Source: Thalassospira profundimaris
GTDB lineage: Bacteria > Pseudomonadota > Alphaproteobacteria > Rhodospirillales > Thalassospiraceae
Length of the DNA stretch: 64,000 nt
Assembly (NCBI RefSeq): GCF_003326675.1
Contig: NZ_JPWF01000001.1
Span: 1-64,000 of the forward strand
Direction of reading: 5' to 3'
This document shows, piece by piece, positions 4,010 to 11,704 of this stretch (the stretch's first letter is position 1; every line of letters begins with the position of its first letter). Below the pieces are notes generated by a model. That model was given only the letters and a program-made list of their open reading frames with translations. It was not told where the DNA came from and ran no database searches. The position numbers and the translations under genes were made by a program.

Positions 4010-4067
4010 TCATTTCATGAAAAGCGTATTGTGTCTTCAACAGCAAACAACCTCGTTGGAGGCAGAC

Positions 4068-4769
4068 ATGATTATCAAAGTAGATGCAGAAACCCGCGGC
4101 CGTGCACAGTTTGGCTGGCTTGATTCGAACCACACTTTTTCGTTCGGTCACTACTATGATCCGAACCGGATGGGCTGGGGCCCGCTGCGCGTCATCAACG
4201 AAGACCGCGTTATTCCGGGGGCCGGTTTTGACACCCACGGTCACAAGGATATGGAAATCATTTCCTATGTTCTTGACGGTGCTCTTGAACACAAAGACAG
4301 TATCGGAAACGGGTCGGTGATCCGTCCGGGTCGTCTGCAACGCATGACCGCAGGCACCGGTATCCGTCACTCGGAATACAACCATTCGAAAACCGATCCG
4401 GTTCATTTCCTGCAAATCTGGGTGATCCCGGAAGCTGCCGGACTGGAACCGGGTTACGAAGAAAAGGAAATCGCACGGGGCGATACCGGTTCGGGTCTGA
4501 CCCTGATCGGCAGCCGCGATGGCCGTGAGAATTCCATCACCATTCACCAGAATGTCGATCTGTATGTAGCCCACCTCAATGATGGTGAAACCGCACAGCA
4601 CAGCATCGAAAAAGGCCGCGTCGCCTGGGTTCAGGTCGCTCGTGGCAGCCTGAAAGTGAATGGCGAAACCCTTAATGCCGGTGATGGCGCGGCAATCAAG
4701 AATGAAGACGAACTTGTCTTCTCTGATGCCGACAATGCCGAAGCCCTTGTTTTTGACATGGTGGCGTAA
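4068..4769 (+). CDS. Pirin family protein
   Basis: This is a bicupin of the pirin family, a metal-binding group that includes the E. coli quercetinase YhhW. The N-terminal cupin carries the metal ligands: an H-x-H pair in TFSFGHYYDP and GFDTHGHKDMEIISYVLDG (about residues 45-65), followed by TAGTGIRHSEYN near residue 95. The C-terminal cupin is divergent and holds GDGAAIKNEDEL. The length of 233 residues is standard. The ATG at 4068 has a strong GGAGG 7 bases upstream; the frame is open further back to 4005 but without a site. The DoxX gene follows 40 bp later, so the two are probably co-transcribed and controlled by the divergent LysR. Confidence 0.93.
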   Translation: MIIKVDAETRGRAQFGWLDSNHTFSFGHYYDPNRMGWGPLRVINEDRVIPGAGFDTHGHKDMEIISYVLDGALEHKDSIGNGSVIRPGRLQRMTAGTGIRHSEYNHSKTDPVHFLQIWVIPEAAGLEPGYEEKEIARGDTGSGLTLIGSRDGRENSITIHQNVDLYVAHLNDGETAQHSIEKGRVAWVQVARGSLKVNGETLNAGDGAAIKNEDELVFSDADNAEALVFDMVA

Positions 4770-4809
4770 GCCGCGAAAAGCGTGCTCCCCCATATCTTGG
4801 AGAATTATC

Positions 4810-5283
4810 ATGACCTCGTTCAATGCAACTGACAAAACCCGTTCGATCATCCCTGCCCTTGGCAGTGTGACTTCCGCCCTGCAACCGCTTACCCCTGTGA
4901 TCATCCGTGTCACCACCGGCCTTCTGATGGTTCCGCACGGCGCACAGAAACTGTTTGGTGCCTTTGGCGGCTATGGCCTTGAAGGGACAGCTGGCTGGCT
5001 TGAAAGCATCGGCTTTGCTCCGGGCTTCGTCTTTGCCCTTCTGATCGGTCTTCTTGAATTCGTTGGCGGTTTGATGCTGACGGTTGGTCTTTTGACCCGC
5101 CCGGTTGCCGCAGCTGTTCTGGTCTTCATGGCTGTTGCCGTTTCGACCCATATCCCGGCGGGTTATTTCTGGAACAACGGCGGCTTCGAAATGCCGCTGA
5201 TGTGGGGCTTGCTGGCGCTGACCGTCCTGATCCAGGGTGGTGGCAAATTCTCGATCGACCGCAAGATCGGTTACGAATTCTAA
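4810..5283 (+). CDS. DoxX family membrane protein
   Basis: This is a small inner-membrane protein of the DoxX family. Four hydrophobic segments are visible: about residues 26-45 (PVIIRVTTGLLMVPHGAQK), 70-90 (FVFALLIGLLEFVGGLMLTV), 95-112 and 128-145. The HGAQKLFG and ETxxG-like EFVGGLML signatures fit the family. DoxX proteins have no settled enzymatic role; some act in redox or thiol stress complexes. The ATG at 4810 has GGAG about 9 bases upstream and lies 40 bp after the pirin stop. A strong terminator follows the gene, closing a pirin-DoxX operon. Confidence 0.9.
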   Translation: MTSFNATDKTRSIIPALGSVTSALQPLTPVIIRVTTGLLMVPHGAQKLFGAFGGYGLEGTAGWLESIGFAPGFVFALLIGLLEFVGGLMLTVGLLTRPVAAAVLVFMAVAVSTHIPAGYFWNNGGFEMPLMWGLLALTVLIQGGGKFSIDRKIGYEF

Positions 5284-5441: not shown

Positions 5442-5915
5442 ATGAATATTGCCAAACAAAGCAACAGCCAGAATGATATTGAAATTGCCGACGGCTTGCG
5501 CCGGTGCAAGGGCGACAGCGCGCACGGCAAAAGCAACGCCGAAAAGCGCTTTCTGATCGTTGATGACAGTATTGAAGTTCGGTTTTCAATTCGCCGAATG
5601 TTGCGCAGCGCCGGAGCAACCCATGTTGATGTTGCTGAAAACGGCGAAGCCGCCCTGCAAATGATGTCCCAGATGGCCCGCAAGCAAACGGGATATGACG
5701 TCATGATTCTGGATTATATGATGCCAGCAATGAACGGCATCGAAACACTTTATGAAATCAAACGGCGCAACATCAAAAGTGCGGATCAAACCCGCAAGAT
5801 CATGCTGACCGGCTTCTACGACCAGGATGTGATCAACGAAGCCAAATCGGTCGGCGCTTCCTTTGTCCTGTGCAAGCCTTGCGACGCAGCAAGCCTGACA
5901 GCCGCCATTTCCTGA
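5442..5915 (+). CDS. Single-domain response regulator (REC only)
   Basis: This is a CheY-like receiver protein with no output domain. A polar N-terminal tail of about 36 residues precedes the receiver fold. The acidic pair is in FLIVDDS (about residues 37-43), the phospho-accepting Asp in VMILDYMMP (near 95), the conserved Thr in KIMLTGF and the Lys in VLCKPC. All key residues are present, so it should accept phosphate. It probably shuttles phosphate or competes for it within the signalling group that starts here. The next gene, REC-HDOD, begins 17 bp after its stop, so they are co-transcribed. Confidence 0.93.
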   Translation: MNIAKQSNSQNDIEIADGLRRCKGDSAHGKSNAEKRFLIVDDSIEVRFSIRRMLRSAGATHVDVAENGEAALQMMSQMARKQTGYDVMILDYMMPAMNGIETLYEIKRRNIKSADQTRKIMLTGFYDQDVINEAKSVGASFVLCKPCDAASLTAAIS

Positions 5916-5932
5916 AGCCACAGGGACAGATC

Positions 5933-7162
5933 ATGCCGCACAATGCTTCGATCATATTTGTTGATGACGATCCCAACGTGTTGCGCGGATTGCGTCGGCG
6001 CATGATGGGTCAGCGTCCCAAATGGTCACTGCGTTTTTACGAACGCGCCGAACAGGCATTGGTCGGTCTTGAAGAACAACCCGCCGATGTGGTGATTTCC
6101 GATATGCGGATGCCCGAAATGGACGGTGCGGAGTTTTTGCGCATCGTTGCGACGCGCTACCCGCAAACATCCCGTATTCTTTTGTCGGGATATGCTGATG
6201 AGGTCGCCATTCAGAATGGTACGGCCGCGACCCAGCATTTCCTGACCAAACCCTGCAAGGATACCGATATCATCCATGCAGTCGAACGCGGATTGATCAT
6301 GCGTCGCTACCTTCATGATCCGTTGTTGATCGACCTGCTTTCCCGTATTCCCGAAGATCTTGTCTGGCCAAAAACCTTTCAACGCCTGCACACGATCTTG
6401 CAGTTCACCGGCCCCAAAAGCCGCGATGAACTGAACGAATTTGCACGTGAATACCCTGCCCTTACAGCACTGGCACAGGAACTGGCGCGGCGTGAAAAAC
6501 TGATTTCCCCGGAAAGCCAGCCTGACCTGATCGGCCTTGTGAAGCTGCTTGGCATCGAAACAATCAAGGCACTGTGCATCCTTTGGGCAGAACTTCGTCA
6601 GCCTGACTGCTTTGATCCCAGCCAGATGGATGTTGAACTGCATCGCCCGATGGTGCTTGGCCAGATGGCGGCCAACATTGCCCGATTGCAAAACCTGACC
6701 TTTGAAACGGTTGATCAGGTCCGCGCGGCCGCCCTGCTTAGTCACATTGGCGATATCATCATCAAGCATGTCAAAGCGGACGGATATCGTGCCAGCCGCG
6801 AACGTGCCGACCGGGATGAATGCGATATTATTTCTGCCGAGATCGCAGAAATGGGTTTTGCCCATCCTGCGGTTTCGGCCTGTATCTGCGCCTATTGGGG
6901 TTTTCCGCATGAAGTGGTTGAAGACATTGCCTTCCACCACCGTCCGGAAGCCGCCCCGACCCGGAATTCCAAGACCCTTCTGATCGTATATGCGGCACAG
7001 CATTTTGCACGTCTGGTCGGGGTTGATGGCGCCCGAATAGCGCGCAAATATGATCTTGCAACCACCTTCATTTCGCGTTGCGGAGCCGAAGATGTCTGGC
7101 CGATCTGGCAGAATGCCTGCATCGAGAATCACACACCGCGTGAACGCAGTCTTCATTCCTAA
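5933..7162 (+). CDS. Response regulator with HDOD output domain
   Basis: The first 120 residues are a complete receiver: IIFVDDDPN, the phospho-site in VVISDMRMPEMDG, then ILLSGYAD and FLTKPC. Residues from about 150 to 400 form an HDOD domain, an HD-related helical fold without phosphodiesterase activity in most members. It shows LVKLLGIETIKALC, LLSHIGDIIIKH and the HPAVSACICAYWGFP motif followed by VEDIAFHH. HDOD regulators are linked to two-component signalling and cyclic-di-GMP circuits. The ATG at 5933 has CAGGGACAG just upstream. The gene is convergent with the histidine kinase gene, whose stop is 48 bp away. Confidence 0.93.
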   Translation: MPHNASIIFVDDDPNVLRGLRRRMMGQRPKWSLRFYERAEQALVGLEEQPADVVISDMRMPEMDGAEFLRIVATRYPQTSRILLSGYADEVAIQNGTAATQHFLTKPCKDTDIIHAVERGLIMRRYLHDPLLIDLLSRIPEDLVWPKTFQRLHTILQFTGPKSRDELNEFAREYPALTALAQELARREKLISPESQPDLIGLVKLLGIETIKALCILWAELRQPDCFDPSQMDVELHRPMVLGQMAANIARLQNLTFETVDQVRAAALLSHIGDIIIKHVKADGYRASRERADRDECDIISAEIAEMGFAHPAVSACICAYWGFPHEVVEDIAFHHRPEAAPTRNSKTLLIVYAAQHFARLVGVDGARIARKYDLATTFISRCGAEDVWPIWQNACIENHTPRERSLHS

Positions 7163-7210
7163 GACAGCGTTCAGCAATCCTTCTTAAACAACGACAAAAT
7201 CGGGAAGGTT

Positions 7211-8734
7211 TTAGCGCAACAGTGCGTTCAGATCGCCCGGCCCCTGCATGGCGCCATTTACGGGTTGCGTCGAATAGGAGGGATTGGCGATTGGCAGGCG
7301 GATCACAAATTCCGCCCCGTCGATATAGTCGCTCGACAGCGTCAGATCACCGCCAAAGTCATCCTGAATAAGCTTGCGACAAATCGGAAGCCCCTGACCC
7401 GTGCCAACACCCCGTTCCTTGGTCGTAAAGAAGTAATCAAAGATACGATCGCGCAATTCTTCGGGCACGCCGCTGCCATTGTCACGCAGACGGATATAGA
7501 CATTGTCATCGTCAGAAGTAACAGACAGTTCAATCCGTCCCCGACGCTGATCGGTTTCACGGATTGCCTGCGATGCATTGACAATCAGATTGATCAGGGC
7601 CTGCGACAGATGGTTGCGTCGACCATTAACGTCCGTGACGTTGGAACGAATATCAACTTCCAGATCAGCAACATGTTTGACCTGGTTGCGTGTCAGGGTG
7701 ACCGCCGTGTCGATTTCCTCGGTGATTGAAATCAGTTCGATGGCATCATTGGCCGGATGGGCAAACTTTCGAATGCCGCGCACAATTTCGGCAATCCGTT
7801 CAAGTCCCTGAATGCTTTCATCAATCGCAAGCGGCACTTCCTGAACCAAAAAGTCGATCTTGTCCTGATCGAAGTCGATTTTTGCCGATGGATCAAGTTG
7901 CTGTCGACGCACAGCATCGACCAGTCCCGAAAAGCTGTCAGACAGGAATTCCAGATTGTTCTGGATATATTGGGCAGGTGTATTGATTTCATGGGCAACG
8001 CCGCCGGCCAGCGTCCCAAGCGCATGCATTTTGGCGTAGTCGGCGGCCTCTTCGATGACTTCCTGTTCCTGGCGCGCCTTCTGGGCGGCGATATCAGCGG
8101 CAAAAACACGCTGGCGCTGACGGATCATGAACCCGCCAAGAACCGCCATCGCAACGACCCCGACAAAGAACAGATAGGTCAGAAGCTCGATATGCCATTT
8201 TACGGTGCGAATATTCTCTGCATTGTAAACCGACACAAAATTGGTCGTCCGAACAACGGCCTGCTGCAATGGTTCATCCATCGGATCCAGCAGACGATAA
8301 AGTTCTTCAAGCTTGCTGCGTGGACCATTTGCTGCGGCAACCGCGCGGTCGATTTCTTCGATACGACGCTGCAGAACTTCGAGTGACGCCGCGACCTCAG
8401 GTACCGAAAGAAGGACTCTGAACCCTTCTCCATCGCGCAATAAAAAGACGCGACTGACCAGAATCTCATACTCCAGCATGACTTCTTCGAGAGCATCCTG
8501 ATCAAGTCTGGACCTGCCAAATGCGGCCTCGATATCGCGCTGAATGATGAAATACTGGCGCTGAATCTGGAACACGGCCCAGACAAAATTCTCGCGATAG
8601 GTAAATCGCTCGTCTTCAAGCTGGCGAATGATCGCCGTCGACAGAACTGCATATAAACCGACAAACAGGACCAGTACAATGAACATGGTCCTGCCTGAAC
8701 GGTTAGACAGAAACGTCTTAATTCTTTGCATCAA
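7211..8734 (-). CDS. Membrane sensor histidine kinase
   Basis: This 507-residue kinase has a short cytoplasmic start, a first membrane helix at about 17-37, a periplasmic region of about 150 residues, and a second membrane helix at about 188-207. A coiled stretch leads to the phospho-acceptor box ALGTLAGGVAHEINTPAQY near residue 250; His in AHE is the predicted site. The ATPase domain has the N box LINLIVNASQAI, the G1 box DNGSGVP and the G2 region FFTTKERGVGTGQGLPI. The gene overlaps the end of the periplasmic protein gene before it by 17 bp, so the two are translationally coupled and that protein may be its sensor partner. It is the only kinase in a region with four receivers. Confidence 0.95.
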   Translation of the reverse strand: MMQRIKTFLSNRSGRTMFIVLVLFVGLYAVLSTAIIRQLEDERFTYRENFVWAVFQIQRQYFIIQRDIEAAFGRSRLDQDALEEVMLEYEILVSRVFLLRDGEGFRVLLSVPEVAASLEVLQRRIEEIDRAVAAANGPRSKLEELYRLLDPMDEPLQQAVVRTTNFVSVYNAENIRTVKWHIELLTYLFFVGVVAMAVLGGFMIRQRQRVFAADIAAQKARQEQEVIEEAADYAKMHALGTLAGGVAHEINTPAQYIQNNLEFLSDSFSGLVDAVRRQQLDPSAKIDFDQDKIDFLVQEVPLAIDESIQGLERIAEIVRGIRKFAHPANDAIELISITEEIDTAVTLTRNQVKHVADLEVDIRSNVTDVNGRRNHLSQALINLIVNASQAIRETDQRRGRIELSVTSDDDNVYIRLRDNGSGVPEELRDRIFDYFFTTKERGVGTGQGLPICRKLIQDDFGGDLTLSSDYIDGAEFVIRLPIANPSYSTQPVNGAMQGPGDLNALLR

Positions 8735-9203
8735 TCGACTTCACCTGCCAGACCGAGTAAGACCAGAAGGTATCTGTCTGCATCCGCGCATCCTTGTCAT
8801 AGGGGAAGACCACCCAGAACGGACCCTTTTCACGGACCGACATTTCCGCATCATTAAGGTGATAGGCCAGAATGGCGCCATCGGCACGCAGAACACTTGT
8901 TGGAACAATCACGTTGTAATCGTTCAAAGCTGCGACGCGAACCTGATCGGCATCAAGCCCGTAGGTATCAATCAGCAGATCGAACGATACCCCTTTGAAC
9001 TTCTGTACGCCGTTGGTCCAGGGGGTCGATGTGTAAAACTCGGTCGCGGGCAATTCCATCAGTTGGTCCATGGAAACCTTGACGGCCTCGCCATTCGGCT
9101 TGGTAAAGGTTACAGAACCACCGGCAGAGGCCGACACCGAGAAGAACCCGACCATTGCGACCACAATACCAAGCAACTTCACACAGCTTTTGAAAAGTCT
9201 CAT
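8718..9203 (-). CDS. Periplasmic protein, oxidoreductase molybdopterin-binding-like fold
   Basis: A signal peptide is clear: RLFKSCVKLLG, a hydrophobic run, then a cut after SASAG. The mature part of about 135 residues resembles small proteins related to the sulfite-oxidase-type molybdopterin domain (VSMDQLMELP, KFKGVSFDLLID, FPYDKDARMQ, WSYSVWQVKSI). Enzymes of that fold use one Cys as Mo ligand, but the mature protein has no Cys at all, so it is probably a binding or sensing protein and not an enzyme. The ATG at 9203 has GGGAG 7 bases upstream; an ATG at 9209 is too close to that site. Its stop overlaps the kinase gene, suggesting joint function. Confidence 0.75.
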   Translation of the reverse strand: MRLFKSCVKLLGIVVAMVGFFSVSASAGGSVTFTKPNGEAVKVSMDQLMELPATEFYTSTPWTNGVQKFKGVSFDLLIDTYGLDADQVRVAALNDYNVIVPTSVLRADGAILAYHLNDAEMSVREKGPFWVVFPYDKDARMQTDTFWSYSVWQVKSIDAKN

Positions 9204-9294
9204 ATCCATGCTCCCTTACATGCTTACAAGCGTGGCCACAGCATGTTGATTTAACAATAACTAACCGGCGAACTTACGCAACCAATCAATATAT

Positions 9295-10473
9295 TCACGC
9301 GCTGATCGGGGCGCTTGCCCGGGCCTCCCAGGTATCAAGTGGTGCCGGACTTCCAAGATAGAAGCCCTGCATTTCGGTGATGCCATAGATCTGCAGTTTT
9401 TCTGCAACCTTGCCGCTTTCAATCCCCTTGGCAGAGATCGAAAGCCCCATTTTCGAACAAACCTGTGCGATCCATTCAACAAAGGCATCATCGAGAAAAT
9501 CGGTCATGATGCCGGCCACCAGATCACGATCCAGTTTGATTCCGGCAAAAATCTCGTGGCGCAGCAGCTCCAGTGAATTATTGCCGGACCCGAAATCATC
9601 AATCAAAAGTGCAATGCCGCGTTCACGCAGACGGGTTGCACTTGCCAAAAGTTCCAGATCGTCCGGGCTTACCTGGCGTTCCGGTATTTCATAGGTGATG
9701 CTGATCCCGCGCATCCGCATTTTTTCATAAAAGCGGATCACCATTTCAAGGAATTCCGGGGTCTTGAGCGAATAGGCCGAAACATTCACCGCAAGATTGG
9801 CATTCTCGCCCAGCAACATCCGGTAACGCGGGGCCTGATCAATCATGATCGCCATCAATTGACTAGTAAGGCGATTGATAATCGGATGGTTGCGGCACAC
9901 CTCGAAAATTTCGTCGATGCCGAATTCTTTTTCAAGCGATGGCATGCGGCACAGAATTTCAACACCGCACAGGCCAAGGTCACTGGCACGGAAACGTGGT
10001 TGCAGGACAGTATAAAAATCGGCGCGATCAATGGCCGCATTCACCATCATCGGTGTCAGACCCGATACCGGCTTGACCACCGGCTTGCTGGTCATGATGA
10101 CGCGTTCAATCGCATCCTTTAGGACGGTCACTGAAACCGGCTTTGCCAGAACGCGGGTCACCATTGCCTGATTGATCGCTTCGCGCAGCGAGATGCTTGA
10201 AACGTTGCCCGACAACAACATACGGTTGACCATCGGCGCCATGCGTGCGGCCTGTTTCAGGAACGAAATACCGTCCAGGGTCGGCATCACCAGATCAGCA
10301 ATAATCAAATCGGCCCGGTCGCGATTAAGCGACAACCAATCCAATGCCGTCTGCCCATCAGCATAGGTGACGAATTCGAAACTGCTCGACAGGGTGCGAC
10401 GCACGGCTGCCAACAGTTTTTCATCATCATCTACCATCAGAATGACGGGACGTTTTTTACTGACCACATCCAT
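9295..10473 (-). CDS. Response regulator with EAL domain (c-di-GMP related)
   Basis: Residues 1-125 form a receiver: VILMVDDDEK, the phospho-site in LIIADLVMPTLDG, RMLLSGN and LAKPVS. Residues from about 150 onward form an EAL domain, the fold of c-di-GMP phosphodiesterases. Most catalytic positions are visible: GVEIL for the EAL motif, NVSA, YEIPE, IDDFGSG, KLDRDLV and MQGFYLG. The usual AEGVE motif reads AKGIE, so one conserved Glu is Lys, and activity is uncertain. It could hydrolyse c-di-GMP weakly or only bind it. The ATG at 10473 has GGAG about 10 bases upstream. It lies upstream of the periplasmic protein and kinase genes on the same strand, with an 91-bp gap. Confidence 0.9.
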   Translation of the reverse strand: MDVVSKKRPVILMVDDDEKLLAAVRRTLSSSFEFVTYADGQTALDWLSLNRDRADLIIADLVMPTLDGISFLKQAARMAPMVNRMLLSGNVSSISLREAINQAMVTRVLAKPVSVTVLKDAIERVIMTSKPVVKPVSGLTPMMVNAAIDRADFYTVLQPRFRASDLGLCGVEILCRMPSLEKEFGIDEIFEVCRNHPIINRLTSQLMAIMIDQAPRYRMLLGENANLAVNVSAYSLKTPEFLEMVIRFYEKMRMRGISITYEIPERQVSPDDLELLASATRLRERGIALLIDDFGSGNNSLELLRHEIFAGIKLDRDLVAGIMTDFLDDAFVEWIAQVCSKMGLSISAKGIESGKVAEKLQIYGITEMQGFYLGSPAPLDTWEARASAPISA

Positions 10474-10626
10474 AAATGGACAACTCCGGTATGCTCTGAA
10501 ATCTCTGTATCGCGTTGGGCCATCCGGCAAAATTGCGTCATACGCATAAGCCGGGGCTTTGAACGGTCACAGATTAGTGTCAGACTGTCCCTGTCCAATA
10601 TCCCCATTTGTGGAGGGCATTTTTGA
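10474..10626. promoter_or_regulatory. Shared upstream region of the two divergent regulator genes
   Basis: This 153-bp stretch separates the REC-EAL gene (minus) from the REC-PAS-LuxR gene (plus) and must hold promoters for both directions. I see no confident sigma-70 hexamers or clear palindrome. It is the natural place for the LuxR-type regulator to act on its neighbours; that is inference. Confidence 0.4.
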
Positions 10627-11595
10627 ATGGCTGAAAAAACGCCGGTGCGGATTGCCTTTGTTGATGATGACGAACACCTTTTGTCGTCGCATCGGCGCAA
10701 TTTTGCGCGCCTGCGCCCCGCATGGGATGCGGCCTATTTCAATGACCCTTACAAGGCACGTGATGCAATTTCTGCCGATTCCGGCATTCATGCGGCCGTA
10801 CTGGATATCCATATGCCGGGCATGTCGGGGCTTGAACTGGCGGCTGAGCTGCGCAGACTGCGAAGTGATCTGATCATTGTCATGCTGACTGGCTATGCCG
10901 ATCTGCAATCGGCCCTTCTTGCCGTCAACGAGCTGGGCGTTTTCCGGTTTTATCCAAAACCCACCAACCTTCAGACCATCCTTGAAGGACTGGAAAGCGA
11001 GATCGAAGCACGCCAAGGCCACGTCGAAGAATCCCTGCCGACCGATTTTCTTGATCTGTTTGAACTCGGTGTCGTTGCCGTCGATGATGCAATGACCATT
11101 CTGCACATGAATGCGCAGGCCGCCGAATTGATGCGCGGATCATCGCTTGTAAAGTCGGGCTCCCAGGGAAAACTGATCCTGGAGCCAACCCCGGACGGAC
11201 TTGCAGCCTTCCTGCATCCGCCGTCAAACATGACACCGCGTCCCCATCAAAGCTATGCGATTGAACGCGATGGCGAAAAACTGTCGGTCCTGATCCGGCG
11301 TGTCCCCAAGAAGACCGATGGCAAAACAACCTTCATGGTCATTCTGGTCGATCCGGCACAACAAAAACCACCCGCTATTGATGACCTTATGGATTTGTTC
11401 GGATTGACCCGTTCCGAGGCGAAACTGACCCAGAAACTGGCCGAGGGACTTGCCCTTGATCAAGCTGCCGAACTTGTCGGGATTTCGCACAGTTCGGCCC
11501 GCACCTATCTTAAAACCATCTTCTCCAAGACCGGTGTCAACAGACAACCGCAATTGATGAAGACGGTGCTGTCATCTATACCATCGCTCCGCTAG
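10627..11595 (+). CDS. Response regulator: REC, PAS-like linker, LuxR-type HTH
   Basis: The receiver spans about residues 5-125 (IAFVDDDEH, AAVLDIHMPGMSG with the phospho-Asp, IVMLTGYAD, FYPKP). A middle region of about 110 residues (FELGVVAVDDAMTILHMNAQ, then RRVPKKTDG) looks like the PAS-like segment found in some LuxR proteins. The C-terminal helix-turn-helix covers about 258-315: DLFGLTRSEAKL, GLALDQAAELVGIS, SSARTYLKTIFSKTGV. It is therefore a DNA-binding output for the signalling group. It starts a plus-strand run with the outer-membrane protein and polysaccharide export genes 109 bp downstream, which are plausible targets by position only. Confidence 0.93.
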   Translation: MAEKTPVRIAFVDDDEHLLSSHRRNFARLRPAWDAAYFNDPYKARDAISADSGIHAAVLDIHMPGMSGLELAAELRRLRSDLIIVMLTGYADLQSALLAVNELGVFRFYPKPTNLQTILEGLESEIEARQGHVEESLPTDFLDLFELGVVAVDDAMTILHMNAQAAELMRGSSLVKSGSQGKLILEPTPDGLAAFLHPPSNMTPRPHQSYAIERDGEKLSVLIRRVPKKTDGKTTFMVILVDPAQQKPPAIDDLMDLFGLTRSEAKLTQKLAEGLALDQAAELVGISHSSARTYLKTIFSKTGVNRQPQLMKTVLSSIPSLR

Positions 11596-11704
11596 GAAGA
11601 TGGAACATCAATAGAAACAATCCCCTATCGACCCAAGGCCACCGTATATTTGCTTGAAAAACAAACCCATTGATCTACCTTGGGTTATGTTGATTTGAAA
11701 AATC

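Follow-up and report, generated by a model that had tools for sequence, protein, structure and literature searches.

A PruR-DTB kinase locus of Thalassospira with candidate REC-EAL, REC-PAS-LuxR and REC-HDOD partners

The closest described relatives of the locus reported here are the PruR-DTB (DcpA-TorS-BaeS) and PruR-DcpA systems known from Agrobacterium, in which the genes for PruR and for a membrane regulator with a DcpA-type periplasmic domain form an operon and overlap (PMC13259868). A comparable network is that of Shewanella oneidensis HnoK, a kinase with an accessory sensor that feeds an EAL protein (HnoB), an HTH protein (HnoC) and a degenerate HD-GYP protein (HnoD) (PMC6335343, PMC8846402). 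In this study we analysed a 64,000-nucleotide stretch of Thalassospira profundimaris DNA (contig NZ_JPWF01000001.1, positions 1 to 64,000; hereafter the window), the closest relatives of which are Thalassospira genomes. Pfam domain annotation of the window placed one membrane histidine kinase, one periplasmic protein and four receiver (REC) proteins within 6.2 kb (5442-11595): a lone REC (REC1), REC-HDOD, REC-EAL and REC-PAS-LuxR (REC-LuxR for short). This is the domain content that an earlier note on this DNA had listed. We consider it fairly probable that the island encodes a pterin-responsive two-component module of the PruR-DTB type, in which one kinase serves three ancestral outputs (EAL, LuxR and HDOD) and an optional fourth.

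The island shares with PruR-DTB the kinase output and a pteridine reductase in the genome. It differs from PruR-DTB and PruR-DcpA in the WX7Q motif of its sensor, in its non-hybrid kinase core of the HEINTP type, and in that its output consists of three or four separate response regulators rather than a fused GGDEF-EAL protein. In the text of the review (PMC13259868), response regulators are not mentioned in connection with DTB kinases; the primary PruR paper could describe them. The gene set is also comparable to that of HnoX-HnoK/HnoS, where one kinase and an accessory sensor stand beside EAL, transcriptional and HD-superfamily regulators, and the related locus of Pacificispira spongiicola shares a degenerate REC-HD-GYP protein with the HnoK network. 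In contrast to that network, the island has PruR and no H-NOX partner, HDOD and not HD-GYP, and an EAL domain without the catalytic glutamate, while HnoB is active. By this analogy the island resembles the HnoK network and is not a member of it, because its sensor is PruR and not H-NOX. The NosR family model NF053512, of the NosP-NahK-NarR/NosR system, was the best NCBIfam match of REC-HDOD (116 bits) and REC-LuxR (60 bits) and also scored on the REC of REC-EAL (76 bits), but these matches lie far below the family cut-off and cover the REC domain only, and the island has no FIST/NosP sensor. EAL receptors of the FimX/LapD type are catalytically dead. The island protein is similar to them in having an EAL fold with conserved ligand residues and no predicted hydrolysis, but here the EAL domain is that of a response regulator, REC-EAL, and carries one fixed Glu-to-Lys change, and binding of cyclic di-GMP (c-di-GMP) is predicted from its sequence. 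To call the island an undescribed system, as the earlier note did, is therefore too strong, since both PruR-DTB pairs (PMC13259868) and one-kinase EAL/HTH/HD-GYP networks (HnoK) have been described; a description of PruR-DTB combined with the EAL/LuxR/HDOD set was not found in the literature. PruR-DTB kinases are reported to be widespread, and the island offers EAL, PAS-LuxR and HDOD proteins as a conserved set of candidate partners in a genome in which a single PruR was found.

The periplasmic protein (8718-9209, minus strand) is a secreted, Oxidored_molyb-like protein of 163 amino acids, with an N-terminal hydrophobic signal peptide and a fold of the SUOX-like family (Pfam and phmmer). It matched solved pterin-binding chains in the phmmer search, namely 7kos/7kou (E 1.6e-23), 7rkb (2.6e-21), 7kp2 (1.1e-17) and also 7kom; 7KOS is the structure of Agrobacterium PruR and 7KP2 that of Vibrio cholerae PruR, and PruR proteins are marked by a signal peptide, a length of about 160-190 amino acids, a Trp replacing the Mo-ligating Cys and a conserved Tyr and Asn (PMC13259868). 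Trp64 at this Cys position and the LNDY motif were kept in 29 of 29 Thalassospira genomes; here and below, these are one genome per species and include metagenome-assembled genomes (MAGs) and contig ends. We classify the protein by these features as a PruR-type pterin-binding protein, and a pterin is its predicted ligand in Thalassospira. A candidate FolM/PruA-like pteridine reductase was found in the genome (L233; 5tgd, E 8e-73; NF006597 at 380 bits, above its cut-off of 281). Alternatively, the protein may be PruR-like in architecture only and sense something other than a reduced pterin, such as an oxidised pterin, a cofactor fragment or the redox state of the envelope. Such a ligand would fit the WX7Q motif that the partner sensor carries instead of WX7E across the genus, and ligand preference may vary among PruR groups through residues such as N102 (PMC13259868). 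Nevertheless, the matches to four solved pterin-binding chains, the retained Trp and LNDY and the reductase gene make another ligand unlikely, and a reduced pterin is the signal assumed below.

The kinase (7211-8731, minus strand; HisKA/HATPase by Pfam, with two predicted transmembrane (TM) helices) is arranged as TM1, a DcpA-like periplasmic helical domain, TM2, a DHp domain with H248 (GGVAHEINTPAQY) and HATPase, its residues being counted from the TTG at 8734; no HAMP domain was detected in it. Its H, N and G boxes (HEINTP, N box, DNGxG and GTGQG) are intact across the genus. In an iterative search, the profile of its periplasmic domain reached the partners of nearly all sampled PruRs of the class, among them a DcpA-like GGDEF-EAL protein, and the PruR and kinase genes abut or overlap throughout the genus. 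Foldseek with the AlphaFold model of the kinase, which has middling confidence (mean pLDDT 74), listed REC, REC-HTH or kinase-core matches only and left the periplasmic domain unclassified. The pair is assigned as a PruR-DTB system because the partner is PruR-type and the kinase bears the DcpA/DTB periplasmic domain. The sensor motif is WX7Q (W52-x7-Q60) in 29 of 29 Thalassospira genomes, while the 'vast majority' of DTB-type sensors carry WX7E (PMC13259868), as do the outgroup kinases of loci L194-L197. This is a deviation within the DTB-type kinases and not an exclusion from them.

The genes for PruR, the kinase, REC-EAL and REC-PAS-LuxR have the same order and strands in 29/29 Thalassospira genomes. 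REC-HDOD (5933-7162, plus strand; Pfam) was present in 24 of the 29, one copy being truncated at a contig end, and REC1 (5442-5915, plus strand; 157 amino acids; Pfam Response_reg, E 6.8e-24) in 15. On the kinase tree no fewer than five changes are required to explain the REC1 pattern, and the genomes without REC-HDOD, five in number, are scattered. These genomes have only paralogs at 30-34% elsewhere, and a search of the 14 genomes with no REC1 in the island gave no copy at another site. Outside the genus, genome contigs were scanned with a REC-LuxR alignment and the loci were annotated for domains. PruR, the DTB kinase, REC-EAL, REC-LuxR and REC-HDOD occurred together, with rearranged order and strands, in four alphaproteobacterial records other than Thalassospira. 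Three are MAGs, assigned to the Alphaproteobacteria (L194), Rhodospirillales (L195) and Rhodospirillaceae (L196, identical to record L098), and the fourth is Pacificispira spongiicola (L197), where a further REC, with a degenerate HD-GYP-like domain, is present. Two other loci, L201 of Thalassobaculum litoreum and L145 of genome G436, combine PruR, REC-HDOD and REC-LuxR with a DTB kinase whose core is of a different, hybrid type. Gene order and even the core of the kinase vary while the set persists, which is good evidence that it is a functional unit, within which phosphotransfer may take place. The earlier note had raised the possibility that the genes scatter independently in relatives. The core four do not, and the set with REC-HDOD recurs in the four outside records, but REC1 and REC-HDOD are patchy. 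Two kinds of match were discarded: the L151 neighbour from the class search with REC-LuxR, which at 25% identity is not a convincing ortholog, and REC1-like matches about 2 kb beyond REC-LuxR in L052, L053 and L055-L058, which belong to a different regulator gene (31-32%). Separately, a betaproteobacterial locus in a Rhodocyclaceae MAG (L202; JADCHQ010000035.1, 7944-14444) holds REC-LuxR, a REC-EAL whose AEGVE motif is intact and a kinase of 967 amino acids with the same type of core; a PruR was not found in it.

Across the genus all four RECs keep the phospho-acceptor Asp, the acidic pocket, the Thr/Ser and the Lys. The alpha-1 helix of a REC is its main contact with the kinase, and we compared this helix among 42 receivers of the same genome, those readable from the loci. 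REC-EAL and REC-LuxR were mutually closest or joint closest, and together with REC-HDOD they grouped with three RECs of a cluster on contig C12, whereas REC1 was of a different type and fell outside the group. The kinase of the C12 cluster (C12:417934) is the nearest paralog of the island kinase, at 37%. REC-EAL, REC-LuxR and REC-HDOD are thus credible candidate partners of this kinase type, and REC1 is a weak candidate for a fourth branch. Where the earlier note joined all four RECs in one circuit, synteny and alpha-1 type agree with it for the first three and disagree for REC1, with its 15 of 29 genomes and different alpha-1. Several observations weigh against a single module. Overall REC identity among the four island proteins is no higher than background, so that alpha-1 alone is informative; the alpha-1 similarity is common to the C12 cluster as well; REC-HDOD has been lost in a scattered manner and REC1 is patchy; and WX7Q replaces WX7E in every Thalassospira, so that docking or ligand response may differ. 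Because the alpha-1 likeness extends to the C12 cluster, the island kinase is not singled out by it and cross-talk with the C12 kinase is possible.

These observations bear on an alternative with two circuits, in which the island kinase feeds only REC-EAL, encoded in its own operon, and the divergently transcribed REC-LuxR. REC-HDOD and REC1 would then form a separate convergent operon and use another kinase such as the C12 paralog. The alpha-1 helix of REC-HDOD is indeed nearest to the C12 RECs, with mean BLOSUM scores of 2.4-3.0 against 1.2 for the island EAL and 0.8 for the island LuxR; the C12 kinase paralog adjoins two REC-HDOD genes and one degenerate REC-HD-GYP gene; and the other four genes persisted through several losses of REC-HDOD and of REC1. 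However, REC-HDOD adjoins PruR-DTB genes in varied orders in six loci outside the genus (L194, L195, L196, L197, L145 and L201), which is hard to explain without a functional link. We therefore hold two circuits to be a serious but rather doubtful alternative to the single kinase with three outputs. The C12 cluster itself (C12 413588-418824; L097 5588-10824) is a second one with many receivers and comprises a PAS histidine kinase, two REC-HDOD proteins and one REC with a degenerate HD-GYP domain, in which HD is replaced and GYP is read as GFP. No PruR gene was detected in the 18-kb stretch around it.

REC-EAL (9295-10473, minus strand; Pfam and alignment to RocR) was scored at 13 active-site positions against RocR (3sy8). 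In the clade of the window (K clade, 17 genomes), 12 of the 13 are invariant, and the position of RocR E352, the essential glutamate of the ExxE motif of EAL, is Lys in 17/17; in the window this is Lys349, in AKGIE, encoded at 9427-9429. The same position is Val or Thr in the sister clade (6 genomes), where D296 is lost as well, and Glu in the basal clade (6 genomes) and likewise in the outgroup REC-EALs that are readable there (L195, L098 and L197). Among 16 aligned EAL domains of the same genome, 14 have Glu, one has Val and only the island REC-EAL has Lys. The one with Val (L258, C49:194192-194896) also has a changed second Asp in its DDFG motif. Position E352 is a metal ligand in RocR (PMC7911125), and the first Glu of ExxE is essential in TBD1265, where Ala abolishes activity (PMC12943098). 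Within the K clade the mean pairwise identity of REC-EAL is 0.78, compared with 0.79 for the kinase; the protein is as conserved as the kinase and therefore not decaying. The K-clade REC-EAL is probably a c-di-GMP receptor and not a phosphodiesterase, and the c-di-GMP-type output proposed in the earlier note is not borne out in the sense of a degrading enzyme. Continued phosphodiesterase activity of REC-EAL, with the Lys tolerated or another residue supplying the base, would agree with the retention of all other scored catalytic, metal and substrate residues in 17/17 genomes and with the clade conservation that equals that of the kinase. We nevertheless regard it as distinctly unlikely, as a Lys at a metal site is a charge reversal, the Ala change at the equivalent Glu abolishes the activity of TBD1265, and the sister clade lost the same Glu together with D296.

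With REC-EAL taken as a receptor, a periplasmic pterin signal and cytoplasmic c-di-GMP could be integrated in one island, the PruR-DTB kinase phosphorylating REC-PAS-LuxR, REC-HDOD and a REC-EAL that the fixed Glu-to-Lys change would have converted from an ancestral phosphodiesterase to a phospho-gated c-di-GMP receptor; we put this forward tentatively, as a proposal somewhat less likely to hold than to fail. If it is true, the apparently active EAL kept by basal Thalassospira and the outgroups provides a natural before-and-after series from enzyme to receptor in a circuit otherwise unchanged. The three clades, with Glu, Val/Thr and Lys at one EAL position, form a comparative series for such an enzyme-to-receptor change in a fixed gene neighbourhood.

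REC-PAS-LuxR (10627-11595, plus strand; Pfam REC/LuxR) has a candidate DNA-binding output. Of the architecture in its name, the REC domain is certain, the PAS domain is a candidate read from model topology and the match to GerE, for the LuxR-type HTH, is weak in the window protein. The middle domain has no Pfam match and shows a PAS-like order of strands and helices in the AlphaFold model (mean pLDDT 78), for which Foldseek listed REC, REC-HTH or kinase-core matches only, leaving the PAS domain unclassified. GerE matched the window protein with E 0.0096 and the outgroup ortholog better, with E 1.1e-4. REC-LuxR diverges from REC-EAL across a shared regulatory region of 153 bp (10474-10626). Within it lies the 17-bp block ATCCCCATTTGTGGAGG (10600-10616, plus strand), an imperfect inverted repeat that is nearly invariant across the clade and covers the ribosome-binding site of REC-LuxR; it is conserved beyond the needs of a ribosome site. 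An exact copy of its 15-bp core occurs only once in the genome, among 14 matches in total (the rest with one mismatch) against 5 for the reversed control. The block may thus be a translational element or an operator for autoregulation. No regulon was proposed for the core, since there is only one exact site. Downstream of REC-LuxR, K-clade genomes carry sugar-transferase, BBP2 beta-barrel and polysaccharide-export genes, a neighbour set that the V/T and basal clades lack. The window itself lacks the sugar-transferase gene (exopolysaccharide priming), which K-clade relatives have between REC-LuxR and the BBP2 gene (compare L172 9072-9830); a short spacer is left at 11596-11704, and the gene has no match elsewhere in the window. 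For the K clade, a link between the LuxR arm and exopolysaccharide is no more than a lead.

A possible mechanism for the module is as follows. A reduced pterin, made by the PruA/FolM-like reductase, would bind PruR in the periplasm, and pterin-PruR would dock on the kinase at its DcpA-type periplasmic helical domain. The long helix from TM2 to DHp would then shift the balance of kinase and phosphatase, and the kinase would phosphorylate REC-EAL, REC-PAS-LuxR and REC-HDOD, whose three RECs belong to a single interface class, with REC1 as an optional sink or modulator. REC-PAS-LuxR would be the transcriptional arm, which may control its own divergent promoter and adjacent exopolysaccharide genes, REC-HDOD would be the protein-interaction arm, and the K-clade REC-EAL is probably a phosphorylation-gated c-di-GMP binding protein. 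The direction of signalling, the phosphotransfer to each REC, the binding of c-di-GMP and the target genes are all predictions read from gene content and protein sequence.

With regard to the layout, the minus-strand genes for REC-EAL, PruR and the kinase form one putative operon. The earlier note had mentioned gene overlap, and the sole real overlap of the island is that of PruR and the kinase, 14 bp (8718-8731). REC1 and REC-HDOD do not overlap if REC-HDOD starts at the ATG at 5933, and REC-EAL starts at the ATG at 10473 and not at the TTG at 10530. A second kinase relative was not found in the 64-kb window, in agreement with the earlier note; of 25 kinase matches, only that of the island itself lies in C1:1-64000. 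The genome has 72 REC domains in total, and for four within 6.15 kb the expected number of occurrences per genome is about 0.002 by a Poisson estimate, which assumes random placement although signalling genes cluster for biological reasons anyway. No near match was found in plasmids. Directly upstream of the island, pirin-like and DoxX-family genes (window 4065-5280) are syntenic in nearly all genomes of the genus.

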